This document shows positions 1 to 51,704 of a stretch of DNA of 64,000 nt, piece after piece. The translations under genes were made by a program, and so were the position numbers. Source of the DNA: Chamaelirium japonicum (Eukaryota > Streptophyta > Magnoliopsida > Liliales > Melanthiaceae); contig OX393551.1 of NCBI GenBank assembly GCA_947650365.1, positions 94,338,697 to 94,402,696 on the forward strand. Reading direction: 5' to 3'. How positions within the stretch are numbered: the first letter of the stretch is position 1; each line of letters opens with the position of its first letter. The notes beneath the pieces are model-generated. The model was not told the DNA's origin, ran no database searches, and saw nothing but the letters and a program-made list of their open reading frames with translations.

Positions 1-3000
1 CTCACAATACATTATCAGCACGAACATGTCGAGCCCAGCCGACCAGTCATAAGAAAACGGAGAGAGAAACGAAGACAAAAGAGAGAAGAAAATGGAGAGA
101 TAAATAAATAGAGAAAAGATAAGAAGTCATGCTCCAGTCCATTCGCCATGGGAATAAGTGTGAAGTAAGAAGGAATCTAAATTCCAAAACTCCACTTCTC
201 AATAGTATCATCTCAATGTTATTATGATTATCATATTAAATTTCAAAACTCTCTTTATTTTAATTAAATAATTAATTTAATTAAAAAAATTATAGTAACA
301 TTATCAGCACGAAAAGAGAAAAAGTCCTGCTCCAGTCCATTAGCTACGGGTATAGGTGTAAAGTAAGAAGGAATCTAAATTACAAAACTCTATTTCACAA
401 TATTTATATGACACCTTTAAGGTGGGGCACATTTGATGGATCTTTCTTTCTTCTACCTCACAACATGTTATCAGCATGAACATGTTGAGCACAGCCTACC
501 AGTCACAAGAAAACAAAGAGAGATGAAGACAGAAGAGAGAGAAAAAGAGAGAAGAGAAAATGGAGAGAGAAATGAAGACAGAAAAGAGAGAAAAAGAGAG
601 AAGAGAACGAAAAGATAAACGAAGAGAGAAGAAGTCCTGCTCCAGGCCATTGGCTACGGATATAGGTGTGAAGTAAGAAGGAATCTAAATTCCAATACTC
701 AACTTCTTAATATTTATACGACCCCTTTAGGGTAGAGCACATTTGACGTCTCTCTCTTTCTCCTATCTCACAATACATTATCAGCATGAACATGTCGAGC
801 CCAGCCGATCAGTCACAAGAAAACGGAGAGAGAAATAATGGCAGAGGAGAAAGAACATGAAAGAAGAGAACAAAAAAGAAAAGAACGGAGAGATAAACAA
901 AGACAGAAGAGAGAAGAAGTCCTGCTCTAGTCCATTAACCACGGGTCTAGGTGTGAAGTAAAAAGTAATCTAAATTCCAAAACTACACTTCTCAATAATA
1001 TAATTTACACTCGCTATTCTCTTCTCTCTTTTTCCATGGATTAGGGTTTCCCATAGATTGCTTAGGGCCTAAGTATGCTTACCCTATAAATAATAAATAA
1101 TTTATGACCCCTTTAGGGTGGGGCATGTTTGACGTTCTCTCTTTCTCTTATCTCACAACACGTTATCAGCACGAATATGTCGAGCCCAGCTGACCAGTCG
1201 TAAGAAAACAGAGAGAGAAACGAGGCCAGAAGTGAAGTTTTGGAATTTAGATTCCTTCTTACTTCACACCTATACCCATGGCCAAAGGATTGGAGTAGGA
1301 CTTCTTCTCTCTTCTCTCTTCATTTATCTCTTCATTCTTTTCTCTCTTCTTCTCTTTCTTCTATGGAGTTTTTGAATTTAGATTCCTTCTTACTTCACAC
1401 CTATACCCGTGGTCAATGGACTTGAGCAGGACTTCTTATTTATTGTCTCTTCATTTATCTCTTTGTCCTCTTCTCTCTTTTGTCTTTGTTTTTTTCTCTG
1501 TTTTATTATGACTGGTCGGCTGGGCATGATATGTTCGTGTTGATAATGTGTTGTATGATGGGAGAAATAGAGAGCCGGCACACGTGCCGCACCCTAAAGA
1601 GGTCGTATAAATATTGAGAAGTGGAGTTTTGGAATTTAGATTCCTTTTTACTTCACAGCTATACCCATGGCGAATGGACTGAAGCAGGACTTCTAATCTC
1701 TTATCTCTTCGTTTATCTCTCTGTTCTTTTCTCTATTTTTCTCTCTCTTCTATCTTTATTTCTCTCTTTATTTTCTTGTGACTAGTTGGTTGGGCTCGAT
1801 ATGTTCGTACTGATAATGTGTTATGAGAAGAGAGAAGAGAACCTAAATAAAATAATATAAATATCTCTAGTTTTAATAATTAAATAGAAGTCTGTTATTA
1901 TCTTCTTTCTCTTTTGTAGAGTTTTGGAATTTAGATTACTTATTACTTCACACTTATACCCGTGGCCAATGGATTGGAGCAGGACTTCTTATATCTTCTC
2001 TTTTTGTTTATTTTTACGTTCTCTTCTCTATTCTTCTCTCTTCTCTTCTCTCTTCTTCTCTCTCGTCTGTAGAGTTTTGGAATTTCGATTCCTTCTTACT
2101 CCATACATATACCCGTGGCCAATGGACTAGAGCAGGACTTCTTCTCCCCTTCTCTTTTTGTTTATCTCTCCGTTCTGTTCTCTCTTCTACCTAAATAATT
2201 TAATTAAATAATATAATTATTTAATTAAGAGAGAAACGAAGACAAAAGAGAGAAGAGAATAAAGAGATAAACGAAGAGAGAAGATAGTAGAAGTCTTACT
2301 CCAGTCTATTCGCCACTGGTATAGGTATAAAGTAAGAAGGAATCTAAATTCAAAAACTCTACTTCTTAATATTTATATGACCTCTTTAGGGTGTGGCACA
2401 TATGATGACCCTCTCTTTCTCCCATCTCACAACACGTTATCAATACGAACATGTCGTGCCCAGGCGAGACAAGAAAACGGAGATAGAAACGATGACAGAA
2501 GAGAGAAGAAGAGAGAAGAGGGCAGAGAGATAAATGAAGAGAAATAAGAGAAGAAGTCCTGATGCAGTCCATTGGCCATGGGTATATATGTGAATTAAGA
2601 AGGAATCTAAATTCTAAAACTCCACTTCTCAATAATATAATTAATCTCTCCATTCTCTTCTCTCTTCTCGCATGGATTAGAGTTTCCTATAGATTGCTTA
2701 GGCCCTAAGTAAGCTTACCCTATAAATAATATACGACCTATTTAGGGTGGGGTATATTTGACGACTCTCGCTTTCTCCCAGTTCTTAACACGTTATCTGC
2801 ACGAACATGTCAAGCCCAGCCGACCAGTCGTAAGAAAACGGAGAGAAAAACGAAGACAGAAGTGGAGTTTTGAAATATAGATTCCTTCTTACTTTACACC
2901 TATACCCATGGTCAATGGAATAGAGTAGGATATCTTATCTCTTCTCTCTTCATTTATCTCTATATTCTCTTATCTCTTCTTCTGTCTCTTCTGTCTTTGT

Positions 3001-3837
3001 TTCTTTCTTCGTTTTCTTGCGACTGGTTGGCTGGGCTCAACATATTCGTGCTGATAATATGTTATGAGATGAGAGAAAGAGAGAACCGTCAAACATGCCC
3101 CACCCTAAAGGGGTCGTATATTATTTATAGAATAGCTTAGTTAGTGCCTAATCGATCTATGTCAAACCCTAATCTATAGGAGAAGAGAGAGAAAAATGGA
3201 GAAATTTAATTATATTATTGAGAAGTGAAGTTTTGGAATTTAGATTCCTTCTTATGTCACACCTATACCCGTGGCCAATGGACTGGAGCAGGCCTTCTTC
3301 TTTTTTCTTTCTTCATTTATCTCTTTATTCTCTTCTCACTTCTTCTCTCTGTTCTGTCTTCGTTTCTCTCTCCGTTTTCTTGTGACTTGTCGGCTGGGCT
3401 CGATATGTTCGTGCTGATAACGTATTATGAAATGGGAGAAATAAAGAGCCGTCAAATATTCCCCACCCTAAAAGAGTCATATATTATTTAAAAGGTAAGC
3501 TTACTTTGGGCCTAAGCAATCTATGGGAAACCCTAATCTATAGTAGAAGAGAGAAGAGAACGGAGAGATTTAATTATATTATTGAAAAGTGGAGTTTTGA
3601 AATTTAGATTCCTTTTTACTTTATACCTATACCCGTGGCTAATGGACTGGAGCAGGACTTCTTGTCTCTTCGTTTAACTCTTATTTTTTTTCTCTCTTCT
3701 TCTCTCTTCTCTCTTCTCTCAACACGTTATAGCACGAACATGTCGAGCCCAGCCGACCAGTCAAAAGAAAATAGAGCGAGAAACGAACACAAGAGAGAGA
3801 GAAGAAGAGAGAAGAGAAAGAAGAAATAAATAAAGAG

Positions 3838-4025
3838 AGAAAAAAAGAAATAAAATATTTTTTATGCTCATAAATTTATATAAATTATTTAATAATTTTG
3901 CAATATTTTATAATTAAATATTTAAATAATAACGTTGAAATGATACTATTTAAATATTTAAAGAAATAATATACTTTATAATATTTAAAAAATATTAATT
4001 GAAATAAATAAAATTAATAAGTATT
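3838..4025 (+). repeat. AT-rich module shared with 16335-16510
   Basis: About 190 bp of AT-rich DNA between a purine-rich interior and CTCCCATCTCATAACACG. The same sequence occurs inverted at 16335-16510, in the same relation to its neighbouring repeat unit. The last 40 bp or so also recur near 14395-14430. It contains AACGTTGAAATGATACT, resembling the arm of the foldback element described at 14099-14227. It is therefore a reusable component of the array, not a unique spacer. Confidence 0.6.
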
Positions 4026-4195
4026 CTCCCATCTCATAACACGTAATCAGCATGAATATGTCGAGCCCAGCCAACCAGTCATAAGAAAACGGGGAGAGAA
4101 ACGAAGACAGAAGAGAGAGTAGAAGAGAGAAGATAATGGAGAGATAAACAAAGAGAGAAGAGAGAAGAAGTCATGTTCTAGTCCATTCACCAGGG

Positions 4196-4200
4196 GTTTA
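4196..4200. repeat. Target-site duplication GTTTA (left)
   Basis: GTTTA immediately precedes the LTR terminus TGTTGG and is repeated exactly at 6154-6158. Joining the flanks gives CAGGG-GTTTA-GGTATGAAGTAAG, which matches the intact repeat unit (CGGGTATAGGTGTGAAGTAAG), so this is a clean insertion. Confidence 0.85.
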
Positions 4201-6153
4201 TGTTGGAATTGGATCCGTTTATCAGAGTCGCAGCGGAAGCAAAAGATAGATCCGAAGATCATACGGTGTATGTTTCATTATAATTAATTCTATAAAATAA
4301 TCTACATGCAAATCTATGATCTTAGCATATGTGCGGACACCCTAGAGGCATACTACGATCTACGGAAGATATACATGCATCTAGTTAGGTGTTTAGAATC
4401 ATCATACCTTTTGGATCTATGATCCGAAGAGAACGAAATGATGATGAACCGTATGTGAATCGTAAGGGAAGCTGTCGGATAGCACCTTGTCCTTTGCGAA
4501 TTAAGGAATCCTCGAAATCCTGTCTCTGAGTGCAAGGATTACGAGCCGACGGAGGAATTCATTGCGAAGACGATGGCGAGCCACAAGATCTTCTCCTTTT
4601 CTTTCTCTCTTCTTCCTTCTCCTTCCTTCCTCCTTCTTCTTTCTTCTTCTTCCTCTTCCTTCCTTGGCCGAAACCACAAAGAGGAGGAGAGCGGGAGAGG
4701 TTCGGATTTTGGTGAGGAAAGGCACTAAAGGCCGGCCCCTCCCCCTCCTCTATACATATAAGGCCGGTCTCCTAGTGCCATGTGCAAGATAGGGCCGGCC
4801 CTAATTAGATTAGGATGAGGGGGGTCGGTTTTTAGGGATTCCAAGTGTCTATCGTGAAGCCTGAACAAAAACGCCCTTCACGAAAAGTGAAAAACTGAAA
4901 AAGAGATTGAGTGAGGTGCGCTACTCGGAATCGAGTTCCGTCAGTGCCTATAAGCTCCTGGAATTATTCTGCTCAATCTAAGATCCATATTCAATATGTT
5001 CTGAGCTATATTTCAGTATTTACCAAAATACCCCTATAGCCCATAACACATACGAATTAGGTTCTTAGGCTCCGGGCTTGCGCTCTATCGCACTACTTCA
5101 CATCCAACGTATCTAACCAGGTCGGGGAAACAATTCCTATACACAACGACAGGGTGGAACCTTCAGGGTTCGAGATCTCTACCTCTAACCGGATCCCTGA
5201 TTAACTGTTCTGGTGACACACCGAAAGTTCCGTTAATCAGCCCTAATCCGATTAACCCGTGTAGCTACCCAGAGTATGACGCAAGTTGAACTCTAGTGAT
5301 CCTAAACTTATGTTACTCCCTCATAACCCTGTTCTCTACTATACTTTGATAATCCTTAGTCCCTCCTATTACTGATGCCATGATACGACTCGGGCAGTGG
5401 GGAGTACCGTTAGATCCCGATCGATCATCTGACTAGGGTTTGATGACTTGTCATCTATAATACTACACACCTTCCGGTGCTATGCCTAGCATCCGAAACA
5501 TCGTTAGTCATACTGACAACCACCAGGCCTGGGTTAACTGTGTGGATAGATTGACTCATCAAAATGCACCCATCCATCACTGGACGTCGGATAACCTGTA
5601 GGGATTACATATCACTCAAGCGCCAGTCGGGTAACCCAACGTACCGTGGTATTGGACTATGGAAGGTCTGCACACATTGGCACATCAAAGCACCACACAA
5701 CTGGTTGGCCCAGTGTACATGGTCCCTCAGGGTTAAAGACATATTATCTACAGTAGTAAGACGGTTTATGCACCAGTATCTGAATCAGTAAACTATGCAC
5801 CGTCTTGGTTCCTGTTCAATATGATCATCGTGCCTGGTCAGGTGAATGGGAATCCCGTGCTCCCGTGGTGGAGACTTCACCATATCCTCTACCTACCAAC
5901 AGCTTGTTCTCGGTAAAGCGACCAGCATCACCTAAGCTGTGAACTAGTTCTAGGTCTACACATAACTGGTACACTGAGTCTCCCAAGTATGGATCTACCA
6001 TGCGCCTCAGTGGCCTACTGTGTTCCTTAAAATCCTTTTATTATATGTGTATAAATATATACTATAGTAGTATTCTAATTAAAGCAATAACCAAAGGCAT
6101 CTTTATTAATGTTAATACAGAAAATCCATGCTAAGGACACACGAGCTATAATA
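4201..6153 (-). mobile_element. Solo LTR of a Ty1-copia element related to the composite at 25185
   Basis: A 1953-bp LTR on the minus strand with no internal region. Its plus-strand left end TGTTGGAATTGGATCC matches the reversed U5 end of the 25185 family (TGTTGGAAGTTAATCC). Similarity continues through GCAGCGGAAGC, a pyrimidine-rich U5 near 4590-4660, a minus-strand TATA region near 4750-4760 (CTATACATATAAGG), and the block around 5860-5960. It is bounded by the 5-bp duplication GTTTA (4196-4200 and 6154-6158), so it inserted whole and later lost its interior by LTR-LTR recombination. The right terminus ends ATA rather than the expected ACA, a probable point change. The minus strand carries AAAAG/GTATGA (donor at 4406-4407), matching the splice-donor-like site of the composite LTRs. 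Short open frames inside are not credible genes. Confidence 0.85.
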
Positions 6154-6158
6154 GTTTA
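6154..6158. repeat. Target-site duplication GTTTA (right)
   Basis: Exact partner of 4196-4200. The head module of the host repeat resumes immediately afterwards (GGTATGAAGTAAGAAGG). Confidence 0.85.
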
Positions 6159-6617
6159 GGTATGAAGTAAGAAGGAATTTAAATTCCAAAACTCTACTTC
6201 TCAATAATATAATTAAATCTTTCCATTATCTTCTCTCTTCTCGTAAAGAATAGGGTTTCCTATAGATTGCTTAGGCCCTAAGTAAGCTTACCCTATAAAT
6301 AATATATGAACCCTTTAGCGTGGGGCACATTTGACTGCTCTCTTATTCTCCCGTCTCACAATATATTATCAGTATGAATATATCGAGCCTAGCTGACCAG
6401 TCATAAGAAAATGGAGAGAGAAACGAAGACAGAACAGAGAAGAAGAGATAAGAGAATGAAGAGATAAACAAAGAGAGAAGAGAGAAGAAGTCCTATTCTA
6501 ATCCATTGGCCACACGTATAAGTGTGAAGTAAGAAAGAATCTAAATTTCAAAACTCCATAGAAGAAAGAGAAGAAGAGAGAAGAGAATGGAGAGATAAAT
6601 GAAGAGAGAAGAAGTCA
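6159..6617 (+). repeat. Array block 2a, forward units
   Basis: Continuation of the unit split by the solo LTR: rest of the head, the long tail with CCCTATAAATAATA near 6290, junction near 6365 (variant TATTATCAGTATGAAT) and purine-rich interior. Near 6555 the head is joined directly to a purine-rich interior (AAAACTCCATAGAAGAAAG) instead of to a tail, one of the alternative junctions recurring in the array. Confidence 0.7.
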
Positions 6618-7634
6618 TGCTCCAGTCCATTGGCCACGGGTATAGGTGTGAAGTAAAAAAGAATCTAAATTTCAAAACTCCACTTATTAATAGTATCATC
6701 TCAACGTTATTATAATTATCATAGTAATGTTACTATAATTTTTTTAATTAAATTAATCATTTATTAAATTATTAAATAATTTAATAATTTAAATAATATA
6801 ATAATTAAGATTTTAATAAAATAATTAATTTATTTAATTATTTAATTATCTATTTATTTAATTAAATTTATTATTTTATTTATTTATTATTATTATATTA
6901 TAAAATAATTAAATTAGGTAACTATTAAATTATTTAAATTATTAAATAAAAAATAATTATTTAATTATATAATTACTTTATTAATTTATTTTATTAGAAA
7001 TTTCTTAAAATATTATTTTATTATGAAATAATTAAATAATTAGTTAATTATTTAAATATTTAAAAACTTATTTAGTAAAGAAATACATTAAATAGATTAT
7101 TTAATTAATCAAATAAATAATTTAATTATTAAATAATTTTATAATTAACTAAATAATAATTAAAATAAATTATTATATAATTATTTTAATATATAGATAA
7201 TAAAATATTTTTTAAAATAATTTAATATTATTTAAAATAATTAATTAAATATTTATTTATTTTAATATTAAAATAATAAATAAATTATTAAAATTATTTA
7301 GTTATTTAATTATATAGATAATTAAATATTTATTTATTTATTTAAAAATTTAATTTATTAAACTAATTAAATTAATTAAATAATAGAAAGTAAAGAAGAA
7401 AGATGAGGCATACCTGAATTTTTTTGCTTTAAAAATAATTTATATTTTTCTTTATAAAATTTAAAATATTACAACTGTTATGCGATCGGATGGATATCCA
7501 CCGTTGGATCTCTCCCATGGATCAGGGTTTCCTATAGATTGCTTAGGCCCTAAGTAAGCTTGCCATATAAATAATATACAACCCCTTTAGGGTGGGGCAC
7601 GTTTGATGGCTTTCTCTTTCTCCCATCTCATAAT
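6618..7634 (+). repeat. Long LTR-like form of the array repeat (about 1 kb)
   Basis: Starts at the usual head (TGCTCCAGTCCATTGGCC) and ends at the usual CCATCTCATAATA before the junction motif near 7636, but has about 800 bp of extra AT-rich DNA between head and tail. The extra part begins with a foldback arm (AGTATCATCTCAACG near 6691), runs through AT-rich sequence to about 7400, then continues TACAACTGTTATGCGATCGG, ATCCACCGTTGGATCTC and CCCATGGATCAGGGTTTCC. The same order appears inverted at 18110-19205. I read these as the least deleted LTRs of the family, with a purine-rich interior of only about 125 bp following (7658-7763). The exact LTR start is inferred from TG and the preceding polypurine tract. 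Confidence 0.55.
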
Positions 7635-9520
7635 ACATTACCAGCACAAACATGTCAAGCCCAGCCGACCAGTCACAAGAAAACAGAGAGAGAAATGAAG
7701 ACAGAAGAGAGAGAAAAGAATGGAGAGATAAACGAAGAAAAAAGAGAGAAGAAGTCATGCTCCAGTCCATTGGCTATAGGTATAGGTCTGAAGTAAGAAG
7801 GAATCTAAATTCCAAAACTCCACTTCTCAATAATATTAGTAAATCTCTCCATTCACTTTTTTTTGCCCATCTCACAATACGTTATCAGCACAAATATGTC
7901 GATCCCAGACTTCCAGTCATAAGAAAATTAAGAGTAAAACGAAGACAAAAGAGAGAGAAAAAGAAAGAAGAGAACAAAGAGATAAACGAAGAGAAAATTA
8001 AAAAGAAATCTTACGCCAGTCCATTGGCCACGGATATAAGTGTAAAGTAAGAAGGAATCTAAATTCCAAAACTCTATTTCTTAATAGTATCATCTCAACG
8101 TTATTATTTAATTATTAAAAAAGTGTAAAGTAAGAAGGAATCTAAATTCTAAAACTTCACTTCTTAATAGTTACACGACCCCTTTAGGGTAGGACAGGTT
8201 TGACGGCTCTGCCTTTCTTCCATCTCACAATACATTATCAGTACGAACATGTCGAGCCCAGCCGACTAGTCGAAAGAAAATGAAGAGAAAAACGAAGACA
8301 GAAAAGAGAGAAGAAGAGAGAAAAGAACAGAGAGATAAATGAAGATAGAAGAGATAAGAAGTCCTGCTCTAATTCATTGGCCACAGGTATAGGTGTGAAG
8401 TAAGAAGGAATCTAAATTCCAAAACTCCACAGAAAAGAGAAGAAGAGATAAGAGGAGAGATAAATGAAGAGAGAAGAGAGAAGAAGTCCTGCTCTAGTCC
8501 ATTGGCCATGGGTATAGGTGTAAAGTAAGAAGGAATCTAAATTCAAAAACTTACTTCTGTCTTCGTTTATTTCTCCATTCTCTTCTCTCTTCTTCTCTCT
8601 CTTCTGTGTAGTATTGGAATTTAGATTCTTTCTTACTTCACACCTTTACCCATTGCAATTAGACTAGAGCAGGACTTCTTCTGTCTTCTCTCTTTATTTA
8701 TCTTTCCTTTCTCTTCTCTCTTCTTCTCTCTCTTCTATTTTTGTTTCTCTCTCAATTAAATAGTTATATTATTTAAATAAATTATTTATGTAGAAGAGAG
8801 AAAAGAATGGAGAGAAAAATGAAGAGAGAAGGGGATAAGAAGTCTTGCTCTAGTCCATTGGCCACGAGTATAGGTATAAAGTAAAAAGGAATCTAAATTC
8901 CAAAACTCCAAAAAAGAGAGAGAAGAGAAAGAAGAAGAGAGAGAAGAAAAGAGAAGAGAATAGAAGAGAGAGAAGATAAGGACAGACTTCTATTTAATTA
9001 TTAAAACTAGATAGATTTAAATTATTTTAATTAGGTTCTCTTCTCTCTCCTCACAATACGTTATCGGCACAAACATGTCAAGCCCAACCGACCAGTCACT
9101 AGATAATGGAGAAAGAAACGAAGACAGAAAAGAGAGAAAAATAGAGAAAAAGAGAGAAGAGAATGGAGAGATAAACGAAGAGAGAAGAAGTCATGCTCTA
9201 GTTCATTGGCCACGGTATAGGTGTGAAGTAAGAAGGAATCTAAATTCCAAAACTTTACTTCTTAATATTTATACAAGCCCTTTAGGGTAGGGCACGTGTA
9301 ACGGCTCTCTCTTTCTCCCATCTCACAACACGTTATCAGCATGAATATGTCAAGCGCCGCTGACTAGTCAAAAAAAAATTGATAGATAAAAGAAGACAGA
9401 AGAAAAAGAAGAAGAAAGAAAAGAATGGAGAGATAAATGAAGAGAGAAGTAGTCCTGCTCCAGTCCTTTAACCACGGGTATAGGTCTGAAGTAAGAAGGA
9501 ATCTAAATTCCAAAACTCTA
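7635..9520 (+). repeat. Array block 2b, forward units
   Basis: Head-to-tail forward copies with junction motifs near 7636, 7880, 8230, 9058 and 9330. Some tails are the long form with CCCATGGAT and TATAAATA; others jump from the head straight to ACGACCCCTTTAGGG. Near 8425 the head is joined directly to a purine interior. Inverted fragments sit at about 8545-8770. 8940-9000 is a near-continuous purine tract. No protein domain was recognised in any frame. Confidence 0.7.
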
Positions 9521-10860
9521 CTTCTGTCTTCGTTTCTCTTTCCGTTTTCTTACGACTGGTCGGCTGAGCTCGACATGTTCGTGCTGATAACATATTGTGA
9601 GATAGGAGAAAGAAAGAGCTATCAAACGTGCCCTATCCTAAAGGGATCGTATATTATTTATTATTTATAGGGTAAGCTTACTTAGGGCCTAAGAAATCTA
9701 TGGGAAACCCTAATCCATAGGAGAAGAGATAAGAGAATGGAGAGAATTAATTATATTATTGAGAAGTGGAGTTTTGGAATTTAGATTCCTTCATACTTCA
9801 CACCTATACCCGTGGCCAATAGACTAGAGCAAGACTTCTTCTCTTTTCTCCTTTTGTTTATCTCTCTATTCTCTTCTTTCTTCTTCTCTCTCTTCTGTCT
9901 TCATTTCTCTCTTTATTTTCTAGTGATTGATCGGCTGGGCTTGACATGTTCATACTGATAACGTGTTGTGAGATAGGAGAAAGAGAGAGCCGTCAAATAT
10001 GCCCCACCCTGAAGGGGTTATATAAATATTAAGAAGTTGAGTTTTGGAATTTAGATTCCTTCTTAATTCACACCTATACCCGTGGCCAATAGACTGGAAC
10101 ATGACTTCTTCTCTCTTCTCTTTTCATTTATCTCTTCATTCTCTTCTCTCTCTTCTGTTTTTGTTTCTCTCTCCGTTTTATTTTCTCACTTTTTCTCTTT
10201 TTTCTGTCTTCGTTTCTCTCTCTATTTTCTTGTGACTAGTAGGTTGAGCTCGACATGTTTGCACTGATAATGTGTTGTGATATTGAAGAAAGAGAGTCGT
10301 TAAACGTGCCCCACCCTAAAGGGGTCGTATAAATATTAAGAAGTGGAGTTTTGAAATTTAGATTCCTTCTTACTTCATACCTATACCCGTGGCTAATGGA
10401 CTTAAGCAGGACTTCTTCTCTTTTCGGGTTGATAATGTTACTATAATTTTTTAAATTAAATTAATTGTTTAATTAAAACGAAGAGAGTTTTGGAATTTAC
10501 TATGATAATCATAATAACATTAAGATAATATTATTGAGAAGTAAAGTTTTAGAATTTAGATTCCTTCTTACTTCAAACCTATACCCATGACGAATAGACT
10601 GGAGCATGACTTCTTCTCTCTTCCCTCTTCGTTTATCTCTCCGTTCTCTTCTCTTTTCTTCTCTCTCTTCTGTCTTTGTTTCTCTCTCCGTTTTTTGTGA
10701 CTGGTTGACTGGGCTCGATATGTTCGTGCTGATAATGTATTATAAGATGGGAGAAAGAGAGAGTCGACAAACGTGCCCCACCCTAAAGGGGTCATATATT
10801 ATTTATAAGGTAAGCTTACTTAGGGCCTAAGTAATCTATGGGAAACCCAAATCTATAGGA
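9521..10860 (-). repeat. Array block 2c, inverted units
   Basis: Four consecutive inverted copies with GTTCGTGCTGATAA-type junctions near 9580, 9950, 10257 and 10724. The block starts at a head-to-inverted-interior junction (CTCTACTTCTGTCTTCG near 9515). 10434-10545 contains a degenerate foldback element (TTACTATAATTTTTT ... TACTATGATAATCATAATAA) instead of an LTR tail. Confidence 0.7.
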
Positions 10861-16334: not shown

Positions 16335-16510
16335 ATTGCTTATTTATTTTATTTATTTCAATTAATATTTCTTTAAATATTATAAAGTATATTATTTCTT
16401 TAAATATTTAAATAGTTATATCTTAATATTATTATATAAATATTTAATTATAAAATATTTCATATTTATTAAATAATTTATATAAATTTATGTGCATAAA
16501 AAATATTTTA
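16335..16510 (-). repeat. AT-rich module, inverted copy of 3838-4025
   Basis: Reverse complement matches 3838-4025 along nearly its whole length, including AGAAATAATATACTTTATAA and the junction into CTCCCATCTC. Both copies stand between the junction-proximal tail sequence and a purine-rich interior. Confidence 0.6.
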
Positions 16511-33032: not shown

Positions 33033-33035
33033 ACC

Positions 33036-34949: not shown

Positions 34950-34951
34950 GG
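34950..34951 (+). other. Candidate 5' splice site in LTR 2
   Basis: CGAAAG/GTATGTG, the equivalent of 27087/27088. With the acceptor ending at 36929 it defines a 1979-nt candidate intron, the same length as in copy 1. Confidence 0.5.
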
Positions 34952-35181
34952 TATGTGTAATCTAACATGTAGATCTAGCGAGCATTATGATTTGCATCCA
35001 TGCTAGTTAATCATTACGCTAGATTGCCGTTAGGGTTTTTCGATTCTCGTGCATACACATGCACACATATGTAGAATAGTTTCTATGAAAATTTAAATCG
35101 CGTAACATGCACCATGAACGGTCTTTCGACCGCCAAATCGCTTCCGCTGCGAGCCTCTGACCCGGATTAACTTCCAACAAT

Positions 35182-35193
35182 TGGTATCAGAGC
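35182..35193 (+). other. Primer-binding site, copy 2
   Basis: TGGTATCAGAGC two bases after the LTR 2 terminus, complementary to initiator Met-tRNA. Confidence 0.92.
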
Positions 35194-39900: not shown

Positions 39901-40934
39901 ATTTGATACTTTACGTAGACGATATTCTACTCTTTGGGAATGATGTAGGAACATTGTCAACGGTAAAGGTCTGGCTGTCAACACAGTTCGATATGAAAGA
40001 CCTGGGTGAAGCGAGTTATGTTTTGGGGATCAAGGTAACACGTGATCGCCAGAACAGGATTCTCTCGCTGTCACAGGCTGCGTATATAGATAAGGTTATG
40101 GCTAGATTTGACATGCAAAACTCCAAGAAGGGTTTTGTGCCATTTAGACATGGCATAAAACTGTCTAAGGATCAATGTCCTAAGACACCTGAGGAGAGAG
40201 CAGAAATGCAGAAGATACCTTATGCTTCGGCATTAGGTAGTCTAATATATGCTATGCATTGTACAAGGCCTGATATCTATTTTGCAGTAGGAATGATGGA
40301 TCGGTTTCAGTCGAATCCGGGTCCAGATCACTGGACAGCTGTGAAGTGTATACTCAAGTACCTTCGTAGAACAAGGGACTATGAGTTGGTTTACACTGGA
40401 CAAGAACTGACGCCGATTGGATATACAGATTCTGACTTTATGTCAGATTTGGAATCCAGGAAGTCGACATCAGGTTTTGTGTTTATGTTAGGAGGAGCAG
40501 CGGTTAGTTGGCAGAGTGTGAAGCAGAAATGCATCGCAGACTCTACCACAGAGGCTGAGTACGTTGCAGCGTGCGAGGCAGCCAAAGAGGCGGTATGGCT
40601 CAAGAAATTCCTTACGGATTTGGGCTGTGTACCAGAGGCCCAGTTACCTATTGTGCTTTACTGCGACAATAGTGGGGCGGTATCACAAGCTAAGGAGCTA
40701 AGACATCACCAAAAGGGGAAGCACATCGAGCGCAAGTTCCACTTGATTCGGCAGTTTCAAAAGCAAGGGCGAGTAGCGGTGACACAGATTGCATCTAAAG
40801 ATAATATTGCTGATCCTTTCACAAAGGCAATACCTACCAAGGCATTCGAGCGACATGTGGACGCGATGGGAGTCAAAACCGTTTTGTTCGCTAGACCAAG
40901 TGGGAGATTGTTAGGATTTGTTCTAAGCTTGTAA
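36930..40934 (+). CDS. Ty1-copia gag-pol polyprotein, copy 2 (complete frame, altered C-terminus)
   Basis: One open frame of 1334 codons carrying all copia functions: gag (zinc knuckle [14 protein letters not shown], residues 251-264), protease DSGS (296), GAG-pre-integrase (from 436), integrase D499-D562-E598 with the expected 35 residues between the last two, reverse transcriptase (D910, YVDD 995-998) and RNase H (D1167, E1208, D1246). It would act in cytoplasmic particles for reverse transcription and in the nucleus for integration. Odd points: a 1-bp deletion near 40886 relative to copy 1 removes the native stop, so the last 15 or so residues come from the polypurine tract and LTR 3. Copy 2 also has Ile where copy 1 has Arg after the integrase Glu, and FLNENL where copy 1 and the usual copia motif have FLNG. 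All catalytic residues remain, so it is possibly but not certainly competent. Driven by LTR 2. Confidence 0.93.
40898..40907 (+). other. Polypurine tract, copy 2
   Basis: AAGTGGGAGA one base before LTR 3. Because of the upstream 1-bp deletion it is also translated as part of the extended polyprotein. Confidence 0.8.
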
Positions 40935-43036
40935 AACTTTATGTTTTGGTCTAATAAAGATTGATAGTTATTATTATTTGAGATGCATATAGGTGCGTAA
41001 CACTGTTACGTGTTCTTTTGAGAACAGAGAGCCATGGTTATATGGTAGTCCACTGAGTTGAAGACTGAGTGGATTGGTCCCAGATAACCTAAATAAGTTC
41101 GCAGCTATGATCAGGTTGGTCGCCTCATCATGTTAAGCTGTTGGCGATGACAGTTCATGGGATGTCTTCACCATGGTCATCACCAGGCACAGTGTCTGTG
41201 GCTGAACGGAACTAACACGGTGTACAGATCAGTGAGCAGAAACTGGTACACTAAGCCGTGTTTCTGCTTAGGGTAAAACGGTCCTAAACCCTGAGAAACC
41301 ACGACTGATGGACTAACCAGTTGCGTGGTGCTTTGGCGCACCAATGTGTGAGGGTCCATATGCAGTGATCCAAAACCACGGTGTACTGGGTTACCCGGCT
41401 GGCGTTGCATTAGCGTGTCACTCCTGCAGGCCATCCACACCCCTGATGGGAGGTGCGTTCCTTGGTGTGACTTACACTGTACCAAACCCAGGCCTGGTGG
41501 TCATCAGTTTGACTGTTGACCGGGTTCGATTACTCGACGGGGTAATCAGAGGTACGATGTATAGGTCAACCTGGAAGGAACCAAGTCATATGATCATTCG
41601 AGTCTGACGGTAGTCTTCACCGCTCGAAGTGAATCATGGCATCAAGTGGAGGGACAGCGGGTTTACCACTACTAAGCGGAGAGCAGGGGTATGATGGAGA
41701 ACATAGTAAGTCTGGGTGAATTGGAGTGCAGCCTGCGTCGCACTCTGGGTGGCTACGCAGGTTAACTCGAGCTCAGAGGATCGATGGTACACTCGGGTAG
41801 TGTGTCGATCGAGCTTGAGTTGGAAGCCATGAACCCCGGTCCCTGATGGTTCCACCTTATCAACATTATGTACGGTTCTTGAACCGTCTCCTCGGAACAC
41901 CATAAGCAGGAGGAAGAAAGAAGTATACGCTCCGTGTGTGCTTGGCACTAGAGCACGGCAGATGCGTAACTACATACGAGTACTAAGGGTTGAGCCCGGG
42001 ATTAGTACAGAGTCGTATGTAGTAATCCATAGCCATAAGTGAACTTCGCTGCATAGGTGCGACGCACCGGGGTATGTTGCGAGTTGACTAGTTGACTTTG
42101 CTAGAGGCACCCTCCGGTGGCCTCAGTTAATAGTAAGTAACTAGTAGATATCACTTAAGTAATGGCCGCTAGGTATCGCATGCTAGAAATGGTCAAAATG
42201 AGGCGTCAGGGCGTTTTGGTAAAAACTTCACTCTGCCGGACCTCACTGTTGGCCGATCCTAGTGGTGGGACACCTCACCAGGGCCGACCCTATAATGTAG
42301 GGATAAGAATCCCTCATCTATAGGGCCGGCCATATGGATAGGGATGGGGCGATAAAAACGGTTAAGATCGAGCCCGAAAAAGTGGGAAAACGGATAAATA
42401 CGCGGAGAGATAAAAAGGAGATAATGGAGAGATGAGATAAGGGGGTCATTATCCCCTTGGATCCTTATCCAAGGGGGGGTGGCCGGCCCTATAAAAGCAC
42501 CTATGGGCGCCAGCCCCATGTGCTACAGAAACCGAACCCCCCCTCCTTTCATCTCTCGAGTTCTCTCCCGTTTCATCTCCCGTTTCCCGCTTGCTACTTC
42601 GTCTTCCTCGCGTGGAGTTCTGAAGAAGGAGAAGGGTCGTTCTTCGGAGGCACTCAGAGATCCGAGAGCGACGTTCCGTGCATCGTGTGAGATCGGGTGA
42701 ACAAGAAGGCAATATCTCCATTCGTACCGTCGGCATCTTCGCGAACGATCTTCCGTCTCCATCGACAAAGAAGACAATTCTCCGCGGTTAAAAGATCCGT
42801 ACGAAAGGTATGTGTAATCTAACATGTAGATCTAGCGAGCATTATGATTTGCATCCATGCTAGTTAATCATTACGCTAGATTGCCGTTAGGGTTTTTCGA
42901 TTCTCGTGCATACACATGCACACATATGTAGAATAGTTTCTATGAAAATTTAAATCGCGTAACGTGCACCATGAACGGTCTTTCGACCGCCAAATCGCTT
43001 CCGCTGCGAGCCTCTGACCCGGATTAACTTCCAACA
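40909..43036 (+). repeat. Copia LTR 3 (outer 3' LTR)
   Basis: About 2128 bp. It begins TGTTAGGATTTGTTC where LTR 1 and 2 read TGTTAGGATTGATGTGTTC, a 4-bp loss ten bases inside the terminus. The rest is near-identical, with TATAAAAG at 42490-42497 and the donor-like site at 42807/42808. It ends CCAACA and then the array head resumes. Confidence 0.93.
42490..42497 (+). promoter_or_regulatory. LTR 3 TATA box
   Basis: TATAAAAG, identical to LTR 1 and 2. As the 3' LTR it could drive transcription outward into the array at 43037. Confidence 0.65.
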
Positions 43037-43041
43037 GTAAT
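43037..43041. repeat. Target-site duplication GTAAT (right of composite copia)
   Basis: Follows the LTR terminus TTCCAACA and is followed by AAGGAATCTAAATTC of the array head. One mismatch to GTAAG at 25180-25184. Confidence 0.8.
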
Positions 43042-46000
43042 AAGGAATCTAAATTCTAAAACTCCACTTCTAAATAATGTAATTAAATTTCTCTATTCTC
43101 TTCTCTCTTCTCCTATGGATTAGGGTTTCCCATAGATTGTTTAGGACCTAAGTAAGCTTACCCTATAAATAATTTATGACCCCTTTAGGGTGGGGCACAT
43201 TTGACGGCTCTTCCTTTCTCCCATCTCATAACAATTTATCAGCATGAACATATCAAGCCCAGCTAACCAGTCGCAAGAAAACAGAAAGAGAAACGACGAC
43301 AGAAATGGAGTTTTGAAATTTAAATTCCTTCTTACTTCACACCTATACCCGTGGCCAATAGACTAGAGCAGGACTTTTTCACTCTTCTCTCATTGTTTAT
43401 CTCTCCGTTCTCTTTTCTCTTCTTCTCTTACTTCTGTCTATGTTTCTTTATCCATTTATTAGGAGAAGAAGAGGAGTTTAACGAAAACAGAAGAGAGATA
43501 AGAAGCGAGAAGAGAATAGAGAGAATAATAAAGAGAAATTAGAGAACTTCACACCTATACCCGTGGCTAATGGACTGGAGCAGGACTTCGTCTCTCTTCG
43601 TTTATCTCTCTATTTTCTTCTCTCTTTTTCTTTCTCTTTTGTCTTCGTTTCTCTATCCGTTTATATAGAGAAGAAGTGGAGTTTAACGAAGACAGAAGAG
43701 AGATAAGAAGCAAGAAGCAAACAGAGAGATAAATGAAGAGAGAAGAGAGAAGATGTCCTGATCCAGTACATTGGCCATGTGTATAAGTGTGAAGTAAAAA
43801 GGAATATGAATACCAAAACTCCACTTCTGTCTTCATTTCTCTTACTATTTTCTTGCGACTGGTCGGTTAGGCTCGATATATTCGTACTGATAACATGCTA
43901 TGAGATAGGAGAAAGAGAGAGCCGTCAAACATGCCCCACCCTAAAGGGGTCGTATATTATTTATAGGAAAAGCTTACTTAGGGCCTAAGCAATCTATGGA
44001 AAACCCTAATCCATAGACAAAGAGAAAAAAGAACAAAGAGATTTAATTATATTATTGAGAAGTGGAGTTTTGGAATTTAGAATCTTTCTTAATTCACACC
44101 TATACCTGTGGCGAATGCACTGGAACAGGACTTCTTCTCTCTTCTCTCTTCGTTTGTCTCTCTGTTCTCTTCTCTCTTCTCACAACACATTATCAATATG
44201 AATATGTCGAACCTAACCGACCAGTCATAAGAAAACAGAGAGAGAAAAGATGATAGAAGAGAGAGAAGATAACAGAGAGATAAATGAAGAGAGAAGATAG
44301 AAGAAGTCCTGCTCCAGTCCATTGGCCACGCGTATAGCTGTAAAGTAAGAAGGAATCTAAATTCCAAAACTCGACCTAAGAGAGATAAGAAAAGAGAAGA
44401 GAATGGAGAGATAAATAAAGAGAGAAGAAGTCCTACTCTAATCCATTGGCCACGGGTATAAGTATGACGTAAGAAGGAATATAAATTCCTAAACTCCACT
44501 TCTGTCTTCGTTTCTCTCTCCACTTTCTTGTGACTGGTCGGCTGGGCTCGACATGTTCGTACTGATAATTTGTTATGAGGTGGGAGAAAGAGAGAGCTGT
44601 CAAATATGCTCCACCCTAAAAAGGTCATATATTATTTATAAGGTAAGATTACTTAGGGCCTAAGCAATCTATAGGAAATCCTAATCCATGGGAGAGATTC
44701 GACGGTGGCCCTAATTAAGCTTACCCTACAAATAATATACGACCCCTTTAGGGAGGGGCACGTTTGATGGCTCTCTCTATCTCCCATCTCATAATACGTT
44801 ATCAGTACGAAAATATCGAGCCCAACTGACCAGTTACAAGAAAATAGAGAGAGAAACGAAGATAGAAATGGAGTTTTGGAATTTAGATTCCTTCTTACTT
44901 CACACCTATACCCATGGCCAATGGACTAGAGTAGGACTTCTTTTCTCTTCTAACTTCATTTATCTCTCCGTTCTCTTCTCTCTTCTTCTCTTTCTTCTAT
45001 GGAGTTTCGGAATTTAGATTCATTCTTACTTCACACCTATACCCGTGCCCAATGGACAGGAGCAGAACTTCTTCTCTCTTCTCTCTTCGTTTATCTTTTT
45101 GTTCTCTTATCTCTTCTTCTCTCACTTCTGTCTTTGTTTCTCTCTCCGTTTTCTTATGACTGGTCGGCTGGGCTCGACATGTTCGTGCTGATAATATGTT
45201 ATGACAAGTGAGAAGAGAACGAAGAGATAAATAAAGAAAGAAGAGAGAAGAAGTCCTGCTTCAGTTCATTCGCCACGGGTATAGGTGTGAAGTAAAAAGA
45301 AATCTAAATTCCAAAACTCTACTTCTTAATAATATAATTAAATCTCTCCTTTCTCTTCTTTCTTCTCCCATGGATTAGGGTTTCTCATAGATTGCTTAGG
45401 CCCTAAGTAAGCTTACCCTATAAATAATATACGACCCCTTTAGGGTAGGGCAAGTTTGACGACTCTCTCTTTATCCTATCTCATAATACGTTATCAGCAC
45501 GAACATATCAAGCCCAACCGACTAGTCACAAGAAAACGGAGAGAGAAACGAAGACAGAAGAGAGAGAAGAAGAAAGAAAATAATGAAGAGGTAAACGAAG
45601 ATAGAAGAGAGAAGAAGTCCTGCTCTAGTCCATTGGCCACGGGTATAGATTTGAAGTAAGAATGAATCTAAATTCCAAAACACCACTTCTTAATATTTAT
45701 ATGACCCCTTTATGGTGGGGCACGTTTGACGGCTCTCTCTTTCTCCCATCTCATAATACGTTATCTACATGAATATATCGAGCCCAGCAGACTAGTCACA
45801 AGAAAACGGAGAGAGAAACGAAGATAGAAGAGAGAGAAGAAAAGAGAAGAGAATAGAGAGATAAATAAAGAGAGAAGAAGTTCTGCTCCAGTACATTAGC
45901 CATGGGTATAGGTTTGAAGTAAGAAGGAATCTGAATTCCAAAACTCCACTTCTCAATAACGGAGAGATAAACGAAGACAAAAAAGAGAGAAGAAGACAGA

Positions 46001-47050
46001 AGAGAACAGAGAGATAAACAAAGATAGAAGAGAGAAGAAGTCTTGCACCAGTCCATTCGCCACAGGTATAGGTATGAAGTTAGAAAGAGTCGTACATCGT
46101 CGGATCTTTTTGATGGATTAGGGTTTCCTATAGATTGCTTAGGCCCTAAGTAATCTTACCCTATAAATAATATATGACTCCTTTAGAGTGGGGCATGTTT
46201 GACAGCTCTTTCTTTCTCCCATCTCACAATACATTATCAGCACGAACATGTTGAGCCGAGTCGACCAATCAAACAAAAACAGGGAAAGAAACGAAGACAG
46301 AAGTAGAGTTTTGGAATTTATATTATTTCTTACTTCACACCTAAACCCATAGAGAATAGACTCGTACAGGACTTTTTCTCTCTTCTATCTTTGATTATCT
46401 CTCCGTTCTCTTCTCTCTTATTCTCTCTCTTCTATTTTTGTTTCTCTCTCTGTTTTCTTGTGACTGGTCGGCTGGGCTCGACATGTTCGTGCTGATAATG
46501 TATTATGAGAAGAGAGAAGAAGAGAGGAGAGAAGTAAGAAGGAATCTAAATTCCAAAACTCCACTCCTCAGTATTTATATGACCCCTTTATAGTGGCGCA
46601 CATTTGACGGCTCTCTCTTTCTCACATCTCACAACACGTTATCAGTACTAATATATCAAGCCTAGCCGACTAGTCACAAGAAAATAGAGAGAGAAACGAA
46701 GACAGAAGTGAAATTTCAGAATTTAAATTCCTTCTTACTTCACACCTATACTTCACACGGATATAGGTCCAAAACTCCACAGAAGAGAGAGAAGAAGAGA
46801 GAAGAGAGAACGGAAAGAGAAACGAAGACAGAAAAGAAAAAAGAAAAAAGAAGAGAACCGAGAGATAAACGAAGATAGAAGAGAGAAGAAGTCCTATTCT
46901 ATTCCATTGGCCACGGGTATAGGTATGAAGTAAAAAAAAATCTAAATTCCAAAAGTCCACTTCTGTTTACGTTTCTCTCTCTGTTTTCTTACGACTGGTC
47001 AGCTGGGCTCGACATATTCATGCTGTTAACGTATTGTGAGATGAAAGAAA
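43042..47050. repeat. Array block 3a, alternating units
   Basis: Resumption of the array after the copia. Forward junction motifs near 43230, 44190, 44800, 45488, 45760, 46235 and 46637; inverted near 43885, 44556, 45180, 46486 and 47013. Palindromic switch points near 43307, 43825, 44498, 44865, 46302, 46705 and 46957 repeat the junction seen in block 2. The long frame 44089-44628 (179 codons, minus) is a reading of pyrimidine tracts and LTR-like DNA with no domain and is not called as a gene. Confidence 0.7.
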
Positions 47051-47340
47051 AAAAGAAGAGAACGGAGACATAAATATGCCAAGCTTAAATTAAATAAAAT
47101 TTATTAAACACGTTATTAATAATTTTATTTAATAAAATAATATCAGAGATATTTAAATATTTTTAAATTTATTAAATAATTAAATAATATATGAGATAAT
47201 TAAATAATTAAATTAATTAATTATTTTACTAAAAACTTAATTATTAAATTATCTAATTATTAAATTATTTAATAATTTAATAAATAATTATAGTAATATT
47301 ACTATGATAATCATAATAATGTTGAGATGATACTATTGAG
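47051..47340. repeat. AT-rich patch ending in a foldback arm
   Basis: About 290 bp of AT-rich DNA after ATGCCAAGCTTAAATT, ending ACTATGATAATCATAATAATG and GATGATACTATTGAG, the right arm of the foldback family joined to an inverted array head. No gene. Confidence 0.55.
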
Positions 47341-50300
47341 AAATGGAGTTTTGGAATTTATATTCTTTCTTACTTCATACCTATAACCATGGCGAATGGA
47401 CTAGAGCAAGACTTCTTCTCTCTTCTCTCTTCGTTTATCTCTTCGTTCTCTTCTCTCTTCTTCTTTCTCTTCTATCTTTGTTTCTCTCTACGTTTTCTTC
47501 TCTCTTCTGTCTCGTTTCTCTTTCTCATAGATTGCTTAGGCCCTAAGTTAGTTTACATTATAAATAATATACAACCCCTTTAGGGTGGGGCATGTTTGAT
47601 GGCTCTTTCTTTCTCCCATCTCAAAATACATTATCAACATGAACATATCGAGCCCACTCGACCAGTCACAAGAAAACGGAAAGAGAAACGAAGATAGAAG
47701 AGAGAGAAGAAGAGAGAAGAGAACGAAGAGATAAACGAAGAGAGAAGACATAAGAAGATAGAAAAGAACAAAGAGATAAATAAAGAGAGAAAAGAGAAGA
47801 AGTCCTGCTCCAGTCAATTGGCCACGGGTATAGGTGTGAAATAAGAAGAAATCTAAATTCCAAAACTCTACTTCTCAATATTTATACGACCTCTTTAGGG
47901 TGGAGCTCGTTTGACGGTTCTCTCTTTCTCCCATCTCACAACACGTTATCAGCACGAACATATTGAGCCCAGCCGACCAGTCGCAAGAAAATGGAAAGAG
48001 AAACGAAGACAGAAGTGGAGTTTTGGAATTTAGATTTCTTCTTACTTCACACCTATACTCTTGGTCAATGGACTGGAGTAGGACTTCATCTCTCTTCTCT
48101 CTTCGTTTATCTCTCTATTCTCTTCTCTCTTCTGTCTTTGTTTCTATCTCTTTTTTCTTATGACTGGTCGGTTGGGCTCGACATATTCATACTGATAGCA
48201 TGTTGTGAGATAAGAGAAAAAAAGAGTCGTCTAACGTGCCCCACTCTAAAGGTGTCGTATATTATTTATATGATAAATATTGTGAGATGGGAGAATAACA
48301 AGGCCGTCAAACATGCCCCACCCTAAAGAGGTCGCATAAATATGTTCGTATTGATGTCGTGTTATGAGAAGAGAGAAGAGAATGAAGAGATAAACAAAGA
48401 GAGAAGAGAGAAGAAATCCTTCTCTATGTTATTTAACTAATATATGATTGTGATAAAAACAGAGAGAGAAACGAAGACAGAAGAAAGAGAAGAAGAGAGA
48501 AGATAACAAAGAGATAAACAAAAAGAGAAGAGAGAAGAAGAGAAAAGAGAATGAGGAGCTAAACGAAGAGAGAAGAGAGAAGAAGTCCTATTCCAGTCCA
48601 TTGGTCATGGGTATAGCTGTGAAGTAAGAAGGAATCTAAATTCCAAAACTCTACTTCCCAATATTTATACTACCCTTTTAGAGTAGGGCATATTTGACGG
48701 CTCTCTCTCTCTTCCATTTCACAACACGTTATCAGCACAAACATATCGATCCCAACCGACCAGTCACAAGAAAACAAAGTGAGAAACAAAGACAGAAAAG
48801 AGAAGAAGAGAGAAGAGAATAAAGAAATAAACGAAGATAGAAGGGAGAAGAATTCCTACTCAGTCCAAAACTGCATAGAAGAGAGAAAAAAAAAGAAAAG
48901 AGAACAGAGAGATAAACGAAGAGAGAAGAAGTCCTTCTCCAGTCCATTGGTCACGGGTATAGATGTAAAGTAAGAAGAAATCTAAATTCAAAAACTCCAC
49001 TTCTGTCTTCGTTTCTCTCTCTGTTTTCTTGGGACTGCTCGGATAGGCTCGACATGTTCGTGCGGATAATGTATTATGAGATAGGACAAAGAGAGACCCG
49101 TCAAACGTGCCCCACCATAAAGGAGTTATATAAATATTGAGAAGTAGAGTTTTAGAATTTAGATTCCTACTTACTTCACACCTATACTCGTAGCCAATGG
49201 ACTGGAGTAGGGCTTCTTCTCTCTTCTCTCTTCATTTATTTCTCCATTCTCTTCTCTTTTCTTCTCCCTCTTCTTCTCTCTTCTCTCTTTGTTTCTTTCT
49301 CCGTTTTCTTGCGACTGGTCGACTGGGCTCGATATGTTCGTGCTGATAACGTGTTATAAGAAGAGAGAAGAAGAGAGAAGAGAACGGAGAGATAAACAAA
49401 GAGAGAATAGAGAAGAAGTCATGCTCTAGTCTATTCGTCACGGGTATAGGTATAAAGTAAAAAGGAATCTAAATTTCAAAACTCTATTTCTCAATATTAT
49501 AATTAAATCTCCACGTTCTCTTCTTCCTTCTGCCATGGATTAGGATTTATCATAGATTGCTTAGGCCCTAAGTAAGCTTACCCTATAAATAATATACGAC
49601 CCCTTTAAGGTGGGGCATATTTGACGGCTCTCTCTTTCTTCTATCTCATAACACGTTATCAGCACGAATATGTCGAGCCCAGCCGACCAGTCGCAAGAAA
49701 ACGGAGAGAGAAACAAAGACAGAGGAGAGAGAAGAAGAGAGAAGAGAACGGAGATATAAACGAAGATAGAAGAGAGAAGAAGTCCTGCTCGAGTCCATTG
49801 ACCACGGGTATAGGTGTGAAATAAGAAGGAATCAAAATTCCAAAACTCCACTTCTCAATAATATAATTAAATCTTTCTATTCTTTTCTCTCTTCTCCCAT
49901 GGATTAGGGTTTCCCATAGATTGCTTAGGCCCTAAGCAAACGTACCTTATAAATAATATACGACTCCTTTAGGGTGGGGCACATTTGACGGCCCTCACTT
50001 TCTCCTATCTCATAATACGTTATCAGCACGAACATGTCGAGCCCAACCGACCAATTATAAGAAAACGGAAAGAGAAATGAAAACAAAAGAGAGAGAAGAA
50101 AAAAGAAGAGAACGAAGAGATAAACAAAGAGAGAAGAGAGAAGAAGTCCTACTCCAGTCCATTGGCCACAAGTATAGGTGTGAAGTAAGAAGGAATCTTA
50201 ATTCCAAAACTCCACAGAAGAGAGAGAATAAGAGAGAAGAGAATAGAGAGATAAATAAAGAGAGAAAAGAGAAGAAGTCCTACTCCAGTCCATTGGCCAC

Positions 50301-51704
50301 GGGTATAGGTGTGAAGTAAGAAAGAATCTAAATTTCAAAACTCCACTTCTATCTTCGTTTCTCTCTCCATTTTCTTACGACTGGTCGGATGGGCTCGACA
50401 TGTTCGTGCTGATAACGTTTTATGAGATGGGAGAAAAAGAAAGCTTCAAACATGCCCTACCCTAAAGGGGTCATATATTATTTATAGGGCAAGCTTACTT
50501 AGAGCCTAAGCAATCTATGAGAAATCCAAATCCATGAGAGAAGATATAAGAGAACGGAGAAATAAAGAAGACAGAAGAGAGAAGATGTCCTGCTCTAGTC
50601 CATTGGCCATGGGTATAGGTGTAAAGTTAGAAGGAATCTAAATTCCAAAACTCCACTTATGTCTTCATTTTCTCTCTATTTTTTTATGACTAGTCGGCTG
50701 GGCTTGACATGTTCGTGCTGATAATGTCTTGTAAGATGGGAGAAAGAGAGAGCCGTCAAACGTTCCCCATCCTAAGGGAGTCGTATATTATTTATAAGGT
50801 AAGATTACTTAGGGCCTAAGCAATCTATAGGAAACCCTAATCTATATGAGAGATAAAGAAGATAACGGAGAGATTTAATTATATTATTAAGAAATGAAAT
50901 TTTGGAATTTAGGTTCCTTCTTCTTCGTACCTATACCCGTGGTAAATGGACATAAGCATGACTTCTTCTCTCTTATCTCTTCGTTTATCTCTCTGTTTTC
51001 TTCTCTCTTTTTCTCTTTTCTCACAACACGTTATTAGCATGAATATATCGACCCTAACCGACCAGTCGTAAAAAAACGAAGAGATAAACGAAGACAGAAG
51101 AGAGAAAAGAACGGAGAGATAAATGAAGAGAGAAGAGAGAAAAAGACTTGCTCTGGTGCATTGGCCATGGGTATAGCCAGTGCATTGGCCACGGGTATAG
51201 GTATGATGTAAGAATGAATCTAAAATCCAAAACTTCACTTCTCAATATTATACGACCCCTTTAAGGTAGGGCATATTTGACGGCTCTCTCTTTGTCTCAT
51301 CTCACAACATGTTACCAGCATGAACATTTCGAGCTCAACCGACCAGTCACAAGAAAATGGAGAGATAAACAAAGACAGAAGAGATAGAAAAAGAGAGAAG
51401 AGACCAGAGAGATAAACAAAGAGAGAAGAGATAAAAAGTCCAACTCTATTCCATTGGCCACGGTATAGGTGTGAAGTAAGAAAGAATCTGATAACGTGTT
51501 ATAAAATGGGAGAAAGAGAGAGCCGTCAAACGTGCCCCATCCAAAAGGGGTCGTATATTTTTTATAGTGTAAGCTTACTTAGGGCCTAAGCAATCTATAG
51601 AAAACCCTAATACATGGAAGAAGAGAGAAGAACATGGAGAGATTATAATTATATTATTAAGAAGTAGAGTTTTAGAATTTAGATTCTTTCTTACTTCACA
51701 CCTA
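47341..51704. repeat. Array block 3b, alternating units to the array's end
   Basis: Forward junction motifs near 47630, 47945, 48727, 49657, 50018, 51028 and 51310; inverted near 48183, 48345, 49058, 49340, 50413 and 50713, with a truncated one at 51488. Long tails with CCATGGATTAGG and CCCTATAAATAATATACGACC at 49535-49605 and 49895-49965. Direct head-interior joins occur near 50206. The last unit is inverted and stops at CTTCACACCTA, where copia leader sequence begins. No gene. Confidence 0.7.

Follow-up and report, generated by a model that had tools for sequence, protein, structure and literature searches.

How can one short stretch of DNA be followed by five different sequences, each joined to it again and again at nearly the same base? 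This question is raised by a satellite array in the window, that is, the 64,000-nucleotide stretch C3:94338697-94402696, which was taken from a single 1.52-Gb assembly; the host has the look of a plant genome, with copia elements present. The original prediction held that a fixed head is joined to at least five alternative partners at one boundary, through template switching during reverse transcription or through amplification of already recombined units. The array is probably a satellite that descends from two sources, an AT-rich stretch and the 5' end (long terminal repeat (LTR), primer-binding site (PBS) and purine-rich leader) of a copia-like LTR retroelement, and that was rearranged and then copied as blocks.

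Both strands were mapped with six modules: the head H (68 bases, plus CAATA to base 73), C (the start of an AT-rich block), A (a long tail), R (a short tail), P (a leader with the PBS) and U (a purine leader). Lower-case letters (p, r, a, h, u) denote inverted modules in junction names. The parts of the array, its full units and an example of each junction are located in the window as follows.

1-4200, both orientations: satellite array (module map, block alignment)
6154-25184, both orientations: satellite array (module map)
43037-51704, both orientations: satellite array, ending at ~51704 (module map)
6620-7759, + strand: full unit, composed of head H (6620), AT-rich C/W (6689-7475), LTR-like segment (7476-7635), PBS/leader P and purine leader U (module map)
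18150-19195, - strand: second full unit, its AT-rich block collinear by eye (module map)
7476-7635, + strand: LTR-like segment of the full unit, of the type TGTTATG...TATA box...CAACA (sequence; other copies alike)
7636-7699, + strand: PBS motif (CGTTATCAGCACGA type) and leader P (module map)
23421-23600, + strand: class a, long tail A joined at head base 73 (junction read)
12371-12460, + strand: class b, short tail R joined at head base 73 (junction read)
14027-14135, + strand: class c, head running on into the AT-rich arm C (junction read)
9458-9595, + strand: class d, inverted P joined at head base 68 (junction read)
14567-14695, + strand: class e, purine segment U joined at head base 64 (junction read)
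12166-12250, + strand: mirror junction f, inverted U joined to the start of P, ...CTTCT followed by CACAACACG (absent from the original prediction)

The H module matched at 112 places in the window (65 on the + strand and 47 on the - strand), two of which are chance matches within an inserted copia element. After a 34-bp filter and the exclusion of two inserted elements, 105 heads were retained. They are followed by R (26), A (22), inverted P (22), U (16), C (10) and others (4), with five unassigned. All 15 positions that had been cited for the five partners carry the named class to within ~10 bp. A wider sample of 24 ten-kb stretches of C1 and C3, five of them without modules, contained the same classes (A 89, R 57, p 52, U 49 and C 48).

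The joints recur at fixed bases. The head is common to A, R and C up to base 73 (CTTCTCAATA); inverted P joins at head base 68 (CTTCT) and U at head base 64 (CTCCAC). In the window and the 24 stretches together, 388 of 409 joints are at these standard places (R 81/88, A 110/117, p 74/77, U 64/68 and C 59/59), and the window alone gives 92 of 96. In other words, the same joints occur at the same bases on C1 and C3, and the claim of a head with five recurring partners holds. Three A joints read as a p joint and then A, and 34 further heads with other neighbours fall outside this recount. In the window, the exceptions are two joints each at head bases 35 and 49, one each at 46 and 47, one U joint at 73, and one head interrupted by the copia insertion. 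A fuzzy search of the window and the sampled loci returned each of the five junction strings in 52-114 copies; the same search returned 0 copies of four control joints (p at 60 and 73, U at 73 and 68) and 0 copies of the letter-reversed junction strings. The recurrence of the joints is not due to chance. The idea of one boundary stands in part: breakpoints are repeated at exact bases, but they occupy three positions by class (64, 68 and 73). Breakpoints scattered across tens of bases, named in the original prediction as grounds for giving it up, are not the pattern here, as the three sites lie within 10 bases. The chance that independent left breakpoints fall within 10 bases of the 390-bp conserved part is 5e-5 for four and 0.0018 for three, on an assumption of independence that d and e may violate through their common P/U site, and with a boundary picked from the data.

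What did the unit look like before these joints were made? The two full-length units in the window, one per strand, appear collinear in the order H-C-AT-rich-LTR-P-U. Full units are arranged in tandem at C1:116.28-116.31 Mb with head-to-head steps of ~0.6-1.3 kb, and all nine heads of stretch L023 with a callable follower belong to class C. The length of the AT-rich part ranges from 398 to 1830 bp across 22 units. Because the head runs on into AT-rich sequence in the full units and in the C1 tandem arrays, class c is how the full unit normally continues, and its earlier description as an alternative partner, a foldback arm, is not upheld. A foldback or terminal-inverted-repeat transposon was likewise rejected for class c, since the homologous AT-rich block of the tandem unit follows in both orientations. 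The other four classes (A, R, U and inverted P) lack the AT-rich block. A and R would be deletions of this block and U a larger deletion, with everything up to the P/U border gone; class A also holds ~25 bases that by eye resemble inverted U. All four derived junctions have their left breakpoint within the last 10 head bases, at the AT-rich edge, and two have a common right breakpoint at the P/U border. The full unit appears to be the ancestral form. Two further candidates were set aside. U is not a polypurine tract, because it lies after the PBS and no LTR follows it; dispersed elements are likewise purine-rich after their PBS. The junction expected of an excised circle (P/U border joined to the head tail) was found in 0 copies by fuzzy search of the window and sampled loci, and none of seven short exact strings for it is present in the window.

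The PBS and the LTR-like ends in the unit speak for a retroelement origin, as had been guessed. The border of R and P reads ...CACAACA followed directly by CGTTATCAGCACGA, which we take to resemble a half-tRNA-Ile primer site. The PBS motif ACACGTTATCAGCACGA, with a leader unlike that of the satellite, has 237 matches in the genome (control 0); among the matches listed (100 of 237) these places are scattered across C1-C5, and all eight copies fetched have a similar LTR-like sequence directly upstream. L036, within L041, is an LTR element whose 155-bp LTRs (TGTTATG...CAACA) are 99.4% identical, with an ATAAT target-site duplication (TSD) on both sides and the PBS motif immediately after the 5' LTR. 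It encodes a copia gag domain (Pfam Retrotran_gag_2, E 1.4e-7), and two other frames had no match. In the full unit of the satellite, TGTTATGAG lies at a comparable distance (160-168 bases), and a TATA box is also present. A profile of the dispersed LTR ends including the PBS gave satellite segments up to 13.6 bits (23 of 28 scored) versus at most 7.4 for shuffles (15 of 280 scored), a score that rests largely on the PBS. A search for the parent element by LTR homology found none, and what the satellite possesses is an LTR-like segment, a PBS and a leader of copia-type kind only. The 17-mer PBS string was not found in the open-licence literature, where its 11-mer core occurred only in works unrelated by title.

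How did the joints spread? An exact 14-mer of the head occurs 14,978 times on the + strand and 15,140 times on the - strand of the genome (30,118 in total; reversed control 15), which suggests more than 100,000 heads when extrapolated from 27 exact 14-mers per 105 window heads. Exact matches in the genome number 717 for the d string and 893 for the e string (controls 0). Among the matches listed (100 of 717 for d and 100 of 893 for e), they form blocks at C1:116.36-118.10 Mb and C2:0.07-1.55 and 108.8-111.5 Mb, with d also at C3:0.11-1.12 and 92.5-93.7 Mb. C2 and C3 blocks are thus found within 0.07-1.55 Mb of the contig start as well, and a satellite restricted to centromeres was rejected for this reason. 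The C1 satellite block has a sharp left edge at position 9401 of L029 (C1:116281401), where it starts within a head after unrelated sequence.

Could each variant instead have arisen by template switching during reverse transcription and entered the growing array one by one, like a terminal-repeat retrotransposon in miniature (TRIM)? The LTR-like ends, PBS and TATA box of the unit are in keeping with this, and Cassandra TRIMs form tandem arrays for which template switching is proposed in the available part of the source (PMC7215508). However, class R lacks the TATA region, class A lacks the LTR start, and multi-unit pieces are shared between loci. No dispersed single junction copy is present among the d and e matches listed, nor among those listed for the 14-mer head; the latter are apparently ordered by position, and the first on the + strand is on C1 at 116.28 Mb. 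Thus, this origin is improbable, and reverse-transcription template switching, as a way of spread, is unsupported, the joints listed being located in blocks.

Amplification of already recombined units, the other route proposed originally, fared better, being supported by multi-kb pieces shared between C1 and C3 and by fixed spacings of d and e. L024 and L025, both on C1, are 98.6% identical over 10 kb; L015 on C3 is 93.7-95.2% identical to them over 4.9 kb; and window positions 1-4200 are 92.4% identical to C1:117.5 Mb (L026) across 4.2 kb. Another C1/C3 pair, of 4.8 kb, reaches only 83%. In C1 and C3 pieces of 3.3-4.9 kb the module order is the same or nearly so. Among the matches listed, d joints are paired at fixed distances: on C2, in the contig-start and inner blocks, four pairs are 2714-2716 bp apart and three are ~42.3 kb apart, and pairs 3557 and 2072-2073 bp apart are found in both C1 and C2. 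Likewise, an e joint precedes a d joint by 4624-4627 bp four times on C2 (719253, 863041, 1047237 and 109867885). Single heads differ by 14% on average (79 heads). Apart from the 83% pair, the multi-kb pieces are more alike than this, which together with the fixed spacings indicates that joints travel in blocks. Divergence of the heads between classes exceeds that within classes by only 0.004 (permutation p 0.033; 79 heads), so the heads are nearly star-like and do not resolve the founders. L024 and L025 (C1:116.47-116.52 Mb) represent a duplication of at least 10 kb with copies 36.5 kb apart, and the head matches listed suggest further repeats at ~19 and 32.6 kb spacing.

Such sharing could mean that one rearranged block with all junction types was duplicated, in which case the junctions would be uninformative on recurrent breakage. 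The long pieces in the same order, also between chromosomes, and the fixed joint spacings are what this reading expects. It is nevertheless unlikely, because the junctions are found in many different orders and a full-unit array exists almost without derived junctions. Furthermore, a comparison with the 24 sampled loci for blocks of at least 700 bp at 88% identity or more gave partners for 14.9 of the 31.9 kb of array in the window, with 41 of the 105 heads; the greater part of that array is without a block partner in this small sample.

The array also changes direction often. Junction f is the mate of d: it reads ...CTTCT followed by CACAAC in 41 of 45 copies and keeps the ordinary R tail in the other four. 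At d, five bases (CTTCT/AGAAG) are common to both sides, and f and e use the same P/U border. The simplest carrier, H-p-U, in which P alone is flipped, accounts for seven cases among the inverted runs, and the composite H-prahu-P for eight. The composite would be the expected product of inversion between a flipped and a normal P in H-p-U-H-A-R-P. Complete P copies in the window and loci have both ends normal in 175 cases, R-P-h in 59, u-P-U in 35 and both ends changed in four, with 162 partial copies, five at sequence edges and 40 with an uncalled end set aside.

The assembly of a long repeat might create such switches artificially. Satellite arrays are hard to assemble and the data come from one assembly, but the same joints recur at the same bases on C1 and C3 and the exact d string is also present on C2; an artefact is therefore very unlikely. 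Much of L018 (C3:98.0 Mb) and L021 (C3:92.0 Mb) consists of another satellite, with a 23-bp unit (TCGTACGAATGAATTAGAATGGA), and similar sequence is present in L019, L022 and L029. The 23-bp satellite switches strand in L021 at ~945, 2316, 5153 and 8760 and in L018 at ~9419. This strand-switching satellite in the same regions is neutral on the question, as it could have the same fault.

The satellite reading suggests the following course. An ancestral H-C-AT-rich-LTR-P-U unit, still seen in tandem arrays, may have undergone DNA breakage or fork stalling at its AT-rich edge, which would have been repaired by 2-5 bp microhomology or by template switching. Such repair could have produced the deletions A, R and U and, perhaps once, a flipped P that created d and f together. 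Recombination between flipped and normal P would then invert whole runs of units and keep changing the direction of the array, and large blocks of the rearranged DNA would be copied from one chromosome to another. For centromeric satellites of maize and humans, repair based on microhomology has been invoked in the available part of PMC8997354.

Several observations weigh against this course or parts of it. Even the near-clean C1 array has strand changes, in L007 and towards the end of L023. An LTR-only profile (nine sequences from eight elements) scored none of 28 satellite LTR segments and 14 of 280 shuffles, up to 2.7 bits; only the termini and the PBS are thus common to satellite and elements, and a common LTR is not proven. 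In the copies printed, no polypurine tract precedes the satellite LTR start (TGTTATG), where AT-rich sequence is found. The recombination step predicts about equal numbers of R-P-h and u-P-U, and the counts are 59 versus 35; 38 more P copies have an uncalled upstream end, and U follows 33 of them. Only 77 of 120 switches from + to - are d and only 49 of 99 from - to + are f, so other joints also switch orientation. G occupies head position 13 in 83% of 70 heads of class p versus 48% of 52 heads of class C, a bias that weakly suits a single founder; how many founding events each junction had is not proven. Hairpin energies at the boundary are modest.

The usual picture of satellites is one of head-to-tail copies altered by unequal exchange. 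Here, derived units persist next to full ones and the breakpoints are resolved to the base, so a likely path from the front end of a retroelement to a satellite and on to broken and inverted units can be read. The array provides a natural setting in which to test whether satellite rearrangement is driven by AT-rich edges and short microhomologies, and how blocks pass from one chromosome region to another. A bolder and rather doubtful idea is that the flipped P leader made the array self-inverting: any P copy could be a partner in either orientation, runs would be continually reversed, and the AT-rich edge would be a recurrent natural break site generating new unit types. If true, satellites in this genome would generally turn over by switching orientation, a possibility hinted at by the strand-switching 23-bp neighbour.

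Two unrelated insertions interrupt the array.

25185-43036, + strand: tandem copia element, LTR-internal-LTR-internal-LTR, inserted in a head; TSD GTAAG/GTAAT (4 of 5 bases equal)
4201-6153, no strand assigned: insertion with TSD GTTTA; empty site in L010

The outer LTRs of the copia insert are 98.9% identical; its second copy is a single open frame of 1349 amino acids and its first copy is broken into three. The other insertion is 1.95 kb long and can be ordered relative to block duplication, because the related block L010 has an empty site. Outside the array, positions 60732-61369 contain G+C-rich overlapping open frames on both strands (197 and 183 amino acids). Neither the window nor six further loci had an Rfam match at gathering scores, and a tRNA search with ARAGORN found none.

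How does the array compare with known systems? No description of this particular array was found in the open-licence literature under the terms searched. The original statement that no described family has this arrangement overlooked satellites made of an LTR and untranslated region (UTR), such as CRM1TR and CRM4TR, tandem repeats from centromeric retrotransposons of maize (PMC3648361, as are the further details of these repeats and of Sobo, within its available part). Like them, the C1 array consists of long head-to-tail runs of monomers, and the monomer carries an LTR end, a PBS and a leader, its LTR-like termini and PBS being common with L041. Cassandra TRIMs resemble the array in that LTR and short internal domain alternate in tandem and that recombination or template switching is proposed for them; as far as the available text goes, they form arrays of ~12 units and single elements, whereas the array here forms megabase blocks with no dispersed copies among the matches listed (PMC7215508). 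In addition, the array, unlike Cassandra, has no Rfam match, and in the copies printed it lacks the polypurine tract expected of a TRIM directly before the 3' LTR. Tandem LTR-retrotransposons of rice and other plants share the LTR-internal-LTR-internal-LTR form of the copia insert; as described in the accessible part of PMC11899658, they are full elements with shared LTRs and not a satellite. The Sobo satellite of wild potato likewise joins LTR-related sequence to other genomic DNA, but its monomer is 4.7 kb, it covers ~360 kb at one pericentromere, and it is gypsy-related. The closest known repeats are CRM1TR and CRM4TR, to whose kind the array belongs. In both, the monomer combines a portion of an LTR with the untranslated leader of an LTR retrotransposon, the 3' ends of CRM1TR and CRM4TR lie at one UTR position near a polypurine-rich region, CRM1TR monomers vary in length as the units do here, and recombination or gene conversion is proposed for their growth. 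In contrast to the array, whose PBS is that of a copia-type element and whose blocks lie on several chromosomes, also near contig starts, they derive from Ty3/gypsy CRM elements and occupy three centromeric or pericentromeric loci, and frequent switching of orientation is not described for them in that part of the source, whereas the units of the array flip often. As a repeat, the array is striking without being of an entirely new kind, and its special feature is the very frequent switching of orientation.

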